This document shows, in pieces, positions 16,312 to 21,819 of a DNA stretch of 64,000 nt. The position numbers and the translations under genes are program-made. The DNA is taken from assembly GCA_002839675.1 (NCBI GenBank), contig PGYM01000004.1, positions 124,001-188,000 of the forward strand, given 5' to 3'. The notes beneath the pieces were generated by a model. The model was given only the letters and a program-made list of their open reading frames with translations, searched no databases and had not been told where the DNA came from. The stretch's first letter is position 1; each line of letters opens with the position of its first letter. This stretch comes from Methanomicrobiales archaeon HGW-Methanomicrobiales-1. GTDB taxonomy: Archaea > Halobacteriota > Methanomicrobia > Methanomicrobiales > Methanospirillaceae.

Positions 16312-16833
16312 TTATTCCGGTTTAAGATAGAAACGCCATTTACAGAACAGTTCTTTGGGATGGGGATCGGGCGGTGCAAACACGCATTCCACGCAGATGC
16401 GTTCATCGATCATCCGGGCAAAGCTCGTGAACTCTGCACGGTGCATCTCGCGGCAGACATACTCTCCCAGTCCCCGTTTGAGCCGGGCTTCCTGCGTGGG
16501 GCATGACGGCACGGTGATGATCACTTCATCCTCTTTTTCCTCAATCGTATAATCGACGATGATCGCCCACGGGAACAACCGGAGTGCTTTGACAAACCCG
16601 GAGAGTCCCTTCTCGGCAATGCCGAACCGCTGCACGAGATCCTTTGCTGCCATCCCGCCGGCTTTGCCCCACACCTGCTCATTGATCTTCTCGGCAACCG
16701 GCTGGCCGTACTGTTCGGCAACATAAATGAACCAGAATGCGTCTACGACCCGGTAGTGCCAGAGCAGGAAATCCAGGTATTCGCGTTTCTCTTCATCGGT
16801 CATTCGGTCAAAGACTGCGGGATTTGTCATCAT
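16312..16833 (-). CDS. DUF6125-like / ATC-hydrolase-like protein
   Basis: The 173-residue soluble protein has a helical N-terminus ([33 protein letters not shown]) and a C-terminal region with conserved-looking cysteines in [28 protein letters not shown] and [17 protein letters not shown]. This layout resembles methanogen DUF6125 proteins and, more distantly, L-2-amino-thiazoline-4-carboxylate hydrolase-like proteins. Whether it binds a metal or has catalytic activity is unknown. An alternative start is the second Met at 16830. It stands alone between the kinase and the ABC locus. Confidence 0.75.
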
Positions 16834-17029: not shown

Positions 17030-17920
17030 TTATTTCCCGATCTTGACCAGCATCTCTTCAAGCGACGGGTATCGCGACTCAATCTTCTCGACCTTGCCCC
17101 CCGCTTCACCAATGAGCCCGGTGCATTCATTGAGTTCGGCCATATTCTCCGCATCGCACACAAAGAGTCCCTCTTCCTGCCGGTAGGTCTTGGAATGCCC
17201 GATAAGTTTGCCGGGATTATCGACAGAAAAGAAGATCGTATACGTCAGGGAGCCGAACTGCTCGCGCAGCTCCTTCATGGTACCGAATGCGACCATCTTC
17301 CCGCGTTTTAAGATCATCACCTTATCACAGATAGCCTCTACCTGGTAGAGGTTGTGCGCCGAGAGCACGATCGTCTTGCCCTCATTCTTGAGCGTGCGCA
17401 GGTAATCGGCAATGAACCGCGAGGTCATCGGGTCAAGGCCGCTGGTGGCTTCGTCATAGACAAGGAAGTTGGGTTCATGGATGAGCGACCGGGCGATCGC
17501 GACCTTCCTTTTCATCCCCTTGGAAAACTCCCCGATCTTTTTTCCCTCCGGTTCCAACGACAGTGCAGCAAAGAGCTGGCTTGACCGGACGCGAATCTCC
17601 TGCGGGGAAAGTCCGTAGATCTCACCGAAGAATGCGAGGTAATTCTCCGCAGTCATCGTCTCATAGAGCCGGGACTCTTCAGGAAGGTAGCCAAGATTTT
17701 CCTTGAGCGCGATCGGATTTTTCACTACATCGATCTCATTGATCAGGAGTTCTCCTGACGTGGGAGCAATAAGACCGGATATGATCTTGAGCAGCGTGGT
17801 CTTGCCCGCCCCGTTATGCCCGATGATGCCGAAGATCTCACCGTCTTCGAACTCGAAACTGACACCATCCAGTGCCATAAAACCATCAAAATTCTTGGTG
17901 AGGTTGCGGGCGGTTATCAT
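17030..17920 (-). CDS. ABC transporter ATP-binding protein
   Basis: Starting at the ATG at 17920, after GAAAGGC, this 296-residue subunit has Walker A GHNGAGKTT (34-42), Q-loop region GYLPEESRLYETMTAENYL, signature EFSKGMKRKVAIARS, Walker B NFLVYDEATSGLD and H-loop VLSAHN. It is the natriuretic/multidrug exporter type (ABC-2 class; CcmA/NatA-like). A C-terminal domain of about 80 residues follows. The likely permeases are the two genes at 18246-21127, transcribed divergently, which is unusual because ATPase and permeases are normally in one operon. Energy coupling at the inner face of the membrane is assigned from family. Confidence 0.93.
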   Translation of the reverse strand: MITARNLTKNFDGFMALDGVSFEFEDGEIFGIIGHNGAGKTTLLKIISGLIAPTSGELLINEIDVVKNPIALKENLGYLPEESRLYETMTAENYLAFFGEIYGLSPQEIRVRSSQLFAALSLEPEGKKIGEFSKGMKRKVAIARSLIHEPNFLVYDEATSGLDPMTSRFIADYLRTLKNEGKTIVLSAHNLYQVEAICDKVMILKRGKMVAFGTMKELREQFGSLTYTIFFSVDNPGKLIGHSKTYRQEEGLFVCDAENMAELNECTGLIGEAGGKVEKIESRYPSLEEMLVKIGK

Positions 17921-18245
17921 GCGTGGTTGCCTTTCAATCAGATGTGGGTGGACTGAAAGATATAGATTGGGATGGCGTACCCGATCAGGTTCAGGAACCG
18001 GGATCGGGATCTTCTCCATGAACCGTCAGGTGCTCTCATGGGGAGCCGGGCAGAGAGCAAAAGTATTACCGGAACTGCAATGACGGGAGATTCACGGGTA
18101 GTGCGTCACCGTCCCCCTGTGGGGAAACCTGCAACCCCGTATCTGCACCGAGTACTATTTGTGTAATCCCAAATACTACACTGTACTATAACTACCGCGG
18201 GAACATTGCAGAAAAACCGGTGAATTTTAAGGAGTTATACCTCGT
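17921..18245. promoter_or_regulatory. Divergent promoter region of the ABC locus with a 10-bp dyad
   Basis: These 325 bp separate the ATPase and the first permease. An inverted repeat, GTACTATTTG (18152-18161) / CAAATACTAC (18170-18179), matches at nine of ten positions across an 8 bp spacer. It lies just upstream of a TACTATA box (18184-18190) that would start permease transcription near 18213. AAGGAGTT (about 18228-18235) is the ribosome site for the ATG at 18246. The dyad's position just upstream of the TATA box suits an activator site. Confidence 0.45.
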
Positions 18246-20051
18246 ATGGGCAGGCTTACCGACATCTCGACCATAGCGCGATGGGAAGTGAAAAAATCCT
18301 TCACCATGATGAGCCGGGATGTACTGCCGTTTGCCATTATTCTTTTTGTCCTGCTGGTTGCCGTAACCGGCTTTGCCGCCCAGACGGGCATGCATCTCCA
18401 GGACGGCATGTATGTCGTTGGCGTGGAGGATCCCAAGATCGCAGAACTGATTGCAAGCGATGCCCGGTTCTCCGTATACCAGGCAGATGCATTCACCCTC
18501 GTGAACGACAGGAACTCCTATGACCTGATCATTTTCAACGGGCAAGTGTACACCAGCCCGACAGAACGGGCAAAAGCGGCACAAAAAACGCTTGAACGCG
18601 ATTATGCCAAATACGTCAACACGGTCTATAACCGGGAGACGGACCTCTTCGCCGCGTACCCGCTCTGGATCGATGTCCAGACCGTGAAGAGCGAACTCAG
18701 CTTCTTATCCACCCAGTCAGGCCAGTACGTGCAGGCTGCCCCCAGTCGTGCGGCACCGGTACCTGAAGGCGCTATTAGTACCGTTCCCACACCGTCACCC
18801 TCTCTGGATTTTACCAAGGAGGAACTCCGGCAGGAACTGGTCAAGACCAGCGCAAAGAATACCCAGATCTCGCGCTACACCGAAGTTCTCTCATCGGAGA
18901 GCACCATGGGCAGCTTCAAGACTCCATCGCAGCTCTCGCCCCCCCTGCCGTTTGACTCCATTATCCTCGTCTTCGTGTTTATCTTCCCGCTCTACTTTAC
19001 CTCGCAGTTCTTCATGATGAGCATCATGAACGAGCGCATTGAACGAAAAGGCGAAGTCCTGCTCTCAACACCCGTGGCTTCCTCATCGATCATCCTAGGA
19101 AAGATGATCCCCTACTTTATCGGCATGGTGGCCATCTGCACTGCGCTCACGCTCTACGTGCGGGCGCCCCTCATCATCATTCTCCCCCTCATACCGGTCA
19201 TCATCTTCTTCCTTGCAAATGCGCTCCTGATCGGCATGGTCTCGCGGAGCTTCAAGGAACTCTCGTTCATCTCGATCTTCTTCTCGACCGTTGCTACGTC
19301 GTACCTGTTCTTCCCCAGCATCTTTGCAAACGTGCACGTCATCTCTCTCATCTCCCCTTTGACCCTGATCGTGCTTTCTGTCCAGAACACCCCCTGGACC
19401 GTCACCGACTACCTGTATTCCACCTCGCTCTTCTGGCTGACCGGGGCGGTGCTCTTCTATATCGGGATGAAAAATTTCAAAGAGGAGCGGCTCTTTTCCG
19501 AAAAACAACTTCTCCCGCGGATCCGCGAGTTCCTCTCTGAGATCATTTCCCGCAGGCACCCGTTCCTCTCCCTCTTCCTGCTGACCGGGTTCTCCATACC
19601 GTTTGTGTTCATGCTGCAGCTGATGAGCCTCACGCTCTTTTTCAACCTGCCCATGCCGTATTCCCTGGTGCTCCTCCTCATCTTTGCCGCATTTATCGAA
19701 GAATGCGCAAAAGGTGTTGGCATCTACACCCTCTATGCCCAGGATCCGGCATTTTTTACCTGGAAGAACCTGATCGCTGCCTGCGCAGCAACGGCGATCG
19801 GGTTCCTGGTTGCAGAAAAACTGCTCCTCTTCATCACGCTCGCCCAGATCACCGAATCGGTCTTTGGCAGTATCCTTTTCCTGTCATTGGGCGTACTCTG
19901 GATGCCCCTGCTCCTGCATTTTGTGGGCGTGCTGATCGTTGCGTGTTCACTGAAATTCTGGGGGCGGAAAGGATTGGCCATCGGGCTTGTGCTCGCTACT
20001 GCCGTTCACTGCCTGTATAACCTTTACTTTATCCTGGGGTGGCTCGGATGA
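18246..20051 (+). CDS. ABC-2 permease fused to a PrsW-like intramembrane protease domain
   Basis: A 601-residue membrane protein. Residues 1-410 form an ABC-2 permease: helix at about 27-46, a large extracytoplasmic domain (50-235) with a Pro/Ser-rich linker, then six helices, the first cytoplasmic loop carrying ERIERKGEVLLSTPVASSSIILGK. Residues 440-601 add further helices with all anchor residues of the PrsW glutamic/metal-dependent protease family: E485-E486-x2-K489, G519...E524, H558-x2-G561 and H588-x3-N592. The two parts are joined by an RRHP-containing amphipathic linker. The stop overlaps the next gene by ATGA. The coupled ATPase is probably the divergent gene at 17030-17920. Protease activity is inferred from motifs. 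Confidence 0.88.
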   Translation: MGRLTDISTIARWEVKKSFTMMSRDVLPFAIILFVLLVAVTGFAAQTGMHLQDGMYVVGVEDPKIAELIASDARFSVYQADAFTLVNDRNSYDLIIFNGQVYTSPTERAKAAQKTLERDYAKYVNTVYNRETDLFAAYPLWIDVQTVKSELSFLSTQSGQYVQAAPSRAAPVPEGAISTVPTPSPSLDFTKEELRQELVKTSAKNTQISRYTEVLSSESTMGSFKTPSQLSPPLPFDSIILVFVFIFPLYFTSQFFMMSIMNERIERKGEVLLSTPVASSSIILGKMIPYFIGMVAICTALTLYVRAPLIIILPLIPVIIFFLANALLIGMVSRSFKELSFISIFFSTVATSYLFFPSIFANVHVISLISPLTLIVLSVQNTPWTVTDYLYSTSLFWLTGAVLFYIGMKNFKEERLFSEKQLLPRIREFLSEIISRRHPFLSLFLLTGFSIPFVFMLQLMSLTLFFNLPMPYSLVLLLIFAAFIEECAKGVGIYTLYAQDPAFFTWKNLIAACAATAIGFLVAEKLLLFITLAQITESVFGSILFLSLGVLWMPLLLHFVGVLIVACSLKFWGRKGLAIGLVLATAVHCLYNLYFILGWLG

Positions 20052-21127
20052 AAGCACGTCACTTGTCCATTATTGCAAAGAAAGAGTTCCGGGGATTGTT
20101 CAACGAGCGCACGATCCTGCTGGCAGTCCTGCTCCAGCTCTTCATCGCCCTGTTCTCATCGTTCCTCATGGTCGGGCTCACCTCCATGTATGACCCCTCC
20201 TCGCTCTCGAAATATTCACATTACAAGTACAACATCGCCTATGCCGGCAATGATTCAGGAGTGCGTGAATATCTCGAGAGCAGCCCGGATTTCCGGGTCT
20301 ACCCGATGGATCTCTCTACCGGGGTTGCTGCGTTAAAAGAGCGAAAACTTTCCGCAGTGATCTATGTTCCCGATACGTCCCCGTCAGCGGATGAACCGGT
20401 CAAGATCACGCTCTATTCGCTGACCAATGATCTCCAGAGCGCGATCGTTGATGTGAAACTCAAGGATATTTTCCTGAAATATGAAAAAGATCTCCGGGCA
20501 GTACGGGCGTTCCGGCTCAGCGAGCAGCCGGTCCCGCTCCAGGTTCCCAAAACCAGCGGGGGCGGTGACTTCTACGAGTTCGTGTACGGGCTGTTGATCC
20601 CCCTGCTGGTCTTCATGCCGGCAATCATTGCATCCGCGCTGGTCATCGATCTCATCACCGAGGAGTACCAGCACGAGACCTTGGAGACCCTGATCTCGAC
20701 TCCCATCACGTTCTCCGAGATGGTCTGGGGTAAGGTACTGGCCTGTGAACTGCTGGTGCCCATTCAGGCAGGGGCATGGTTGCTGCTCCTCATGGCCAAT
20801 GGCATTGCCATCGAAAACGCCGGGCTGATCCTGGTACAGGTCGTGGTCACTTCACTCATCCTGATCCTGCTGGGTGCCCTGACTGCTCTGCACTACCGCG
20901 AGCGGACGGCAGCACAGTTCATCTTCTCTACTGCACTGGTAGTCGTGATCCTCTTTACCCTGGCCCTGCCCTCAAACCCGCTCAACCTGCTCACCCGGCT
21001 TGCCGTTGGCACTGCGGGTCCCGAGCAATGGCTGGTGCTCGCGGCAACGGTAGGTATCATCGTCATCCTGGGATTCCTGACCCAGAAATATGCGGAACGG
21101 GTCGGGAAATCACACCACGCGGGATGA
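20048..21127 (+). CDS. ABC-2 type permease, second subunit
   Basis: This 359-residue permease begins at the ATG overlapping the previous stop (ATGA), so the two are translationally coupled. An N-terminal helix (about 18-43) is followed by an extracytoplasmic domain (about 45-180), then six hydrophobic helices. The cytoplasmic EEYQHETLETLISTPITFSEMVWGK segment is the typical ABC-2 coupling motif, and the order of features mirrors the first permease without its protease tail. The two probably form the heterodimeric channel of an exporter. The substrate is unknown. Confidence 0.92.
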   Translation: MKARHLSIIAKKEFRGLFNERTILLAVLLQLFIALFSSFLMVGLTSMYDPSSLSKYSHYKYNIAYAGNDSGVREYLESSPDFRVYPMDLSTGVAALKERKLSAVIYVPDTSPSADEPVKITLYSLTNDLQSAIVDVKLKDIFLKYEKDLRAVRAFRLSEQPVPLQVPKTSGGGDFYEFVYGLLIPLLVFMPAIIASALVIDLITEEYQHETLETLISTPITFSEMVWGKVLACELLVPIQAGAWLLLLMANGIAIENAGLILVQVVVTSLILILLGALTALHYRERTAAQFIFSTALVVVILFTLALPSNPLNLLTRLAVGTAGPEQWLVLAATVGIIVILGFLTQKYAERVGKSHHAG

Positions 21128-21144: not shown

Positions 21145-21624
21145 TTAAACGAATGTAATGATCATTGGCCGGTCGATAGCCTTGTAGGTCTTTCCCGCGC
21201 TGCTCACAAAGACCTCGACCCGGTCGCTTCCCCTTGTGCCCTGTATCACCAGCTCATCGCCGCGCCGGGGTTTTCGCTGTCCGTCATTCATGTACTGCTC
21301 AATGACCTGTCCATCAGACAGGGTGACCTTCATCATAATTTTCTGGACTGATATCTCTCCTTTCCCGCCATTATACAGCAGGTGCAGGGTATAGTCGGGA
21401 CGCTCTTTGGTAAGCTGGAGATCAACAAACTGTTCGGGGGGAAGCGTATCAACGGTAATGGGAGTGGTCACCCCGGTTGTCTGGGAAGTGGTGACATCAG
21501 AGGTTGGCAGAGGGGTGAGGGTGACTTCGGGTTTGATCTCTGCCTGGGTCGGACTCGTACAACCGGCAGAGAGCGCACAAAATACGAGCATGAGTGCGGC
21601 AAGCAGGAAAAGGGCATTTTTCAT
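21145..21624 (-). CDS. Predicted lipoprotein
   Basis: The 159-residue product, taken from the ATG at 21624 (a TTG five codons upstream is possible), has a signal peptide ending in the lipobox LSAGC, a Thr/Pro-rich linker typical of surface proteins of this group, and a beta-rich domain (EQFVDLQLTKERPDYTLHLLYNGGKGEISVQKIMMKVTLSDG). It should be anchored outside the membrane by a lipidated Cys. It faces the second permease across only 17 bp. Function unknown. Confidence 0.82.
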   Translation of the reverse strand: MKNALFLLAALMLVFCALSAGCTSPTQAEIKPEVTLTPLPTSDVTTSQTTGVTTPITVDTLPPEQFVDLQLTKERPDYTLHLLYNGGKGEISVQKIMMKVTLSDGQVIEQYMNDGQRKPRRGDELVIQGTRGSDRVEVFVSSAGKTYKAIDRPMIITFV

Positions 21625-21819
21625 AGGAATTGCTTTCAATTTGTATATATTTCTGATTTGCGCTCGGGAATGGAGCTGATACGAACCAGACTGCCAAGAT
21701 ATCGGTTTTCCTCAATCTCTGGCTGATCCGGCATGGAAAAAACAGATAAAATACAAGGAAAGAACAGTTAAATTAAAAAGGACACCCGGTTTAACGTTAT
21801 GTATCAGGAGTAACAGGGA

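Follow-up and report, generated by a model that had tools for sequence, protein, structure and literature searches.

A PrsW-like domain fused to an ABC-2 permease is conserved with its exporter partners across an archaeal phylum

Introduction

Why would a subunit of a membrane exporter carry a domain that resembles an intramembrane protease? The question is raised by a gene in the 64,000-nucleotide stretch of archaeal DNA that we analysed (the window), which comes from a methanogen near Methanoregula. The gene encodes an ABC-2 permease that continues into a second membrane domain, which the original prediction, made from the sequence alone, assigned to the PrsW family. PrsW proteins are poorly understood beyond one Bacillus signalling pathway, in which B. 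subtilis PrsW cuts the anti-sigma factor RsiW (PMC4602095). Moreover, few substrates are known for archaeal membrane proteases (PMC9263693).

Results

The fused gene reads from an ATG at position 18246 to a stop codon that ends at 20051, and the closest relatives of its product share 88–92% identity with it. Residues 27–407 match the ABC2_membrane_3 model (PF12698) with 41.1 bits (E = 1.5e-10), the curated cut-off being 31.6 bits. In an AlphaFold2 model, this half is predicted to comprise a first transmembrane helix (TM1), an extracellular domain at about residues 48–235 and a transmembrane bundle at about 236–410. Predicted helices of the PrsW-like domain lie at about 439–465, 472–499, 506–532 and 552–597. 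Table 1 gives the coordinates of these parts and of the two partner genes.

Table 1. Features of the fused gene and of its exporter partners in the window.
Feature	Coordinates	Strand	Details
Fused gene, ABC-2 permease + PrsW-like domain	18246..20051	+	601 aa
ABC-2 permease half	18246..19475	+	residues about 1–410; PF12698 and AlphaFold2 secondary structure
PrsW-like domain	19557..20048	+	residues about 438–601; hhalign, PF13367 in orthologues, structural model
Motif 1, EExxK (E485, E486, K489)	19698..19712	+	conserved in 88/88 and 41/41 proteins
Motif 2, GFxxxEK (G519-F520...E524-K525)	19800..19820	+	E524 and K525 in 41/41
Motif 3, PxxxH (P554, H558)	19905..19919	+	both in 41/41
Motif 4, HxxYN (H588, Y591, N592)	20007..20021	+	H 41/41, Y 40/41, N 37/D 4
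Second ABC-2 permease	20039..21127	+	362 aa; 13-base overlap with fused gene
ABC ATPase	17030..18019	-	divergently transcribed; ABC_tran (PF00005), 2.4e-30

Is the tail of the protein related to PrsW? On its own, the tail of the window protein matched no relevant Pfam model, PrsW included, in a single-sequence search, and it is therefore missed by annotation of that kind. Among orthologues, the PrsW model (PF13367) was matched by 20 of 36 tails from the same order (best 6.4e-8) and by 23 of 47 tails from across the phylum (best 2.8e-9). The curated cut-off of this model is 23.5 bits; the window protein falls below it and several orthologues lie above it. Indeed, a search over 120 genomes placed several fused loci above the cut-off, with 35.1, 33.2 and 28.9 bits. 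When a profile of the 47 tails was compared with 21 stand-alone archaeal PrsW proteins, hhalign aligned the two with a probability of 94.7% (E = 5.8e-8) over 153 columns, with EExxK, GFxxxE, the single His and HxxYN all in register.

The control comparisons gave a different picture. The match between the permease half and the tail was confined to 18 columns that the two profiles share by construction, and the reversed tail reached 0.6%. None of the orthologous tails, 36 at the level of the order and 47 at the level of the phylum, matches the ABC2 model. A tail that scored as an ordinary permease repeat had been set beforehand as the outcome that would overturn the PrsW assignment; these controls point away from it, and the proposed kinship with PrsW stands. 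Membership of the CPBP family was also considered and rejected. Against CPBP proteins from the same phylum, hhalign gave 6.5% over 28 columns, and the CPBP model (PF02517) weakly matched 2 of 36 tails (best 0.01). The CPBP/Rce1-like motifs EExxxR and FxxxH are absent, and the tail has EExxK and FxxxE in their place.

In a midpoint-rooted tree, the tails form a clade of their own relative to 21 sampled PrsW proteins (support 0.84). As judged by these sequence comparisons, the protein very probably joins a permease to a PrsW-homologous tail, and this tail is most aptly described as a diverged branch of the PrsW family that is linked to a permease.

The published motifs of PrsW are EExxK, a His in the fifth transmembrane helix and HxxxD, and the extra His of the fifth helix is not found in CAAX proteases (PMC4602095). 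The fused tail carries EExxK, GFxxxE, the fifth-helix His (H558) and HxxxN/D. Residues E485, E486, K489, E524, H558, H588 and N592 are identical in all 88 full-length orthologues. In 41 proteins that span the phylum, E485, E486, K489, E524, K525, P554, H558 and H588 are invariant, F520 and Y591 are each retained in 40, and N592 is Asn in 37 and Asp in 4. Few positions of the protein are kept as strictly as the presumed active-site residues.

Other positions set the fused tails apart from stand-alone PrsW. All 21 stand-alone archaeal proteins have EExxK, the motif-2 Glu, the Asn that follows it and the motif-3 His, whereas all 41 fused tails have Lys (K525) at the position of that Asn. The motif-2 Tyr of stand-alone PrsW is replaced in the fused tails, mostly by Leu, and an FD...DG stretch that is invariant in the sampled stand-alone archaeal proteins is missing. 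The use of these three features (Asn, FD...DG and Tyr) as a criterion for PrsW is our own and is unpublished. G561, which had been counted among the PrsW anchors, is variable in the phylum-wide set of 41 sequences (16 Thr, 14 Gly, 4 Ala and others). Hence, the original prediction that every anchor of the family is present held for the seven residues that are identical in the 88 orthologues; it failed at G561, and it overlooked the substituted Asn, the missing FD...DG stretch and the lost Tyr.

The structural model of the tail, a predicted helical bundle, is confident (pLDDT 94.1, pTM 0.88), and that of the full-length protein is moderate (pLDDT 70). Do the Glu and His residues face the lipid, as a non-enzymatic tail might have them? 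Helical-wheel analysis answers weakly: E485, K489, E524, H558 and H588 all sit no more than 30 degrees from the conserved face of the helix to which each belongs, but the one-sidedness is significant in the last helix alone. No PDB fold matched the full-length model significantly, the best match being a long mycobacterial efflux permease (E = 0.03, TM 0.23). A fold search of the PDB with the tail alone was likewise without a significant match; its top row was APH-1B (E = 1.8), and a sequence search of the PDB returned nothing relevant. APH-1B and PrsW have been assigned to one superfamily (PMC4602095).

How widespread is the fusion? The fused protein is present in single copy, and nearly always at full length, in 113 of 150 Methanomicrobiales genomes (30 of 35 genera). 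Across the phylum, a profile search recovered it from 144 of 295 genomes, which represent 60 of 107 genera and include haloarchaea. Among the matches in these 295 genomes there was no tail-less homologue, except at contig ends and in one frameshifted gene. A scan of a genome collection with one protein, the reach of which is close relatives, returned Methanomicrobiales-type records only, and a scan of a plasmid collection returned one haloarchaeal match. In Haladaptatus salinisoli, a plasmid operon (LIX00_RS22150–22140) holds the same three genes as the window, the fused one included. The fused protein encoded there is 29% identical over 96%, has intact motifs and is annotated merely as “ABC transporter permease subunit”; the ATPase gene of this operon is co-directional, whereas that of the window is divergent. 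On the evidence of these sequences, the fused gene is of ancient origin and has been conserved throughout the archaeal phylum.

The source genome of the window has no stand-alone PrsW in a PF13367 search, and the fused domain is the only known PrsW-like protein there. The same genome has one CPBP-type protease (C1:714461-715102).

The second permease lies immediately 3ʹ of the fused gene in all 41 loci compared, and in the window it matches PF12698 with 61.7 bits (8.7e-17). The true start of the ATPase is probably at 17920 (residue 34, MITARNL), about 33 codons after the called start, because orthologues align mostly from residue 32–34. Clustering of the 41 loci recovered the fused gene in 39, the second permease in 36 and the ATPase in 33; a direct search located the ATPase in 38. 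These three are the only families conserved around the locus phylum-wide. The system thus has what defines an ABC-2 exporter, namely two permeases above the cut-off, an ATPase and a conserved gene set. The permease pair is fixed in its arrangement; the ATPase gene is divergent from it in loci of the methanogen type and co-directional with it in those of the haloarchaeal type.

Complete genomes of the order without the fused gene are also without the second permease and a close ATPase; seven genomes were compared, and their ATPases are only distant ones. The three genes are inherited and lost together. Distances between permeases and between tails are correlated (r = 0.894, a value reached by 0 of 999 permutations), a correlation that shared vertical descent alone would give. 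In one genus, the fused gene is absent from the sampled genomes, several of which are 97–99% complete, and the whole three-gene system is absent from the five of them that were searched for the partners.

Adjoining the operon in the window is a gene for a DUF6125-type protein (16312–16833, minus strand; PF19620, 1.7e-25). A lipoprotein open reading frame lies at 21145–21639 on the minus strand, opposite to the fused gene. This lipoprotein had been put forward as a possible substrate, a suggestion that finds no support here: it is outside the neighbourhood conserved in the 41 loci. Nor is any substrate gene conserved beside the operon in these loci. We also considered dependence on the archaeosortase system and set it aside. 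TIGR04125 is found in 235 of 235 well-assembled genomes of the phylum, those without the fused gene included, and its co-occurrence with the fusion is therefore uninformative about the substrate.

Discussion

What might a PrsW-type domain do in an exporter? The catalytic-type residues are strictly retained and the link to the exporter genes is unbroken, which argues for an active protease that works with the pump. The tail is likely to be an active enzyme. We propose that the two permeases and the ATPase form the pump of a three-gene ABC-2 exporter, and that the C-terminal PrsW-like domain is held within the pump complex. The domain would cut a membrane-anchored peptide or protein within the bilayer or at its edge, by means of the Glu-Glu pair, the Glu of motif 2 and the two His residues. 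The pump would extrude the product, either releasing it in matured form or clearing the remnants of cleavage from the membrane. We give this combined mechanism of cleavage and export a rough probability of 0.45; both the proteolysis by the domain and the cleavage and export of one and the same molecule are steps that we infer. More tentatively again, the system may be an ancient archaeal machine, spread across the phylum, whose PrsW-type protease joins an ABC-2 pump in one complex that cuts membrane-anchored substrates and then extrudes the product.

An alternative explanation is that the fusion serves regulation. The pump would sense either a compound or stress on the envelope, and its PrsW domain would cut a regulator or a partner subunit in a site-1-like manner, such that cleavage and export concern different molecules. 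The one PrsW that has been studied well acts in signalling as a site-1 protease (PMC4602095), and fusion and co-inheritance fit a regulatory role equally well. However, none of the gene families conserved beside the operon in the 41 loci is a regulator. To our knowledge, sigma/anti-sigma pairs of the RsiW kind are absent from archaea. We regard the regulatory explanation as unlikely, although it is the strongest competitor of cleavage coupled to export.

It is less likely still that the domain is non-catalytic, binding a membrane-embedded substrate or lipid and feeding it to the pump much as APH-1 acts as a scaffold in gamma-secretase. APH-1B, which is generally held to be a non-catalytic relative, is the top structural match of the tail, albeit not a significant one, and the Lys in place of the PrsW Asn beside the motif-2 Glu would suit a domain that has lost its activity. 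On the other hand, the four motifs, the Glu-Glu pair included, are invariant phylum-wide, which is unexpected for a mere scaffold. That the tail is an ordinary permease extension or repeat with chance Glu and His residues is very improbable: the efflux permease that best matches the whole model does so weakly, and the tail aligns with PrsW rather than with the permease half, in a comparison that the reversed control fails and without any ABC2 match in the tails.

If cleavage and export are indeed coupled, the PrsW protease of these archaea is built into the transporter, which could then serve methanogens and haloarchaea generally as a way to rid the membrane of peptides or to release them. A PrsW-type domain is tied to one transporter across both groups, yet it is unannotated. 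Haloarchaea carry the fusion and some of them are genetically tractable; hence, the link between proteolysis and export is directly testable.

How does the fused protein compare with known systems? With stand-alone PrsW (PF13367, MEROPS M82) the tail shares the four motifs and an all-helical membrane domain. It differs in its fusion to an ABC-2 permease and in the Lys that replaces the motif-2 Asn, and it has neither FD...DG nor the motif-2 Tyr. In arrangement, the closest parallel comes from the streptolysin S cluster, where SagE, a suspected leader protease, is paired with SagGHI, a dedicated ABC exporter (PMC4513790). As in the fused system, a membrane protease of the CAAX superfamily accompanies an ABC exporter that is built from two permeases and an ATPase. 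Unlike in the fused system, the Sag components are separate proteins, the protease is of the CPBP type, and the cluster includes a set of peptide-modification genes, of which none was seen here.

The nearest precedent in architecture is the NCBIfam model NF041647, “ABC transporter permease subunit/CPBP intramembrane protease”, which has the same order of parts and a protease of the same superfamily. Permeases match this model at positions of about 3–394 and stand-alone CPBP proteins at about 420–635; its protease half is thus CPBP, whereas that of the fused gene is PrsW-like. No match to NF041647 was obtained with the window protein or with its 36 aligned orthologues, and the equivalog cut-off of 435 bits was exceeded in none of 60 genomes of the phylum. 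The partner permease alone matches the permease half (1.9e-12), far under the cut-off. The original prediction knew of no characterised example of such a protein. This agrees with the literature in so far as no PrsW–permease fusion is described in the open-access papers that we searched, subscription literature being outside our scope, but it passes over the permease–CPBP fusion that NF041647 already models. The joining of a permease to an intramembrane protease therefore has a precedent in annotation.
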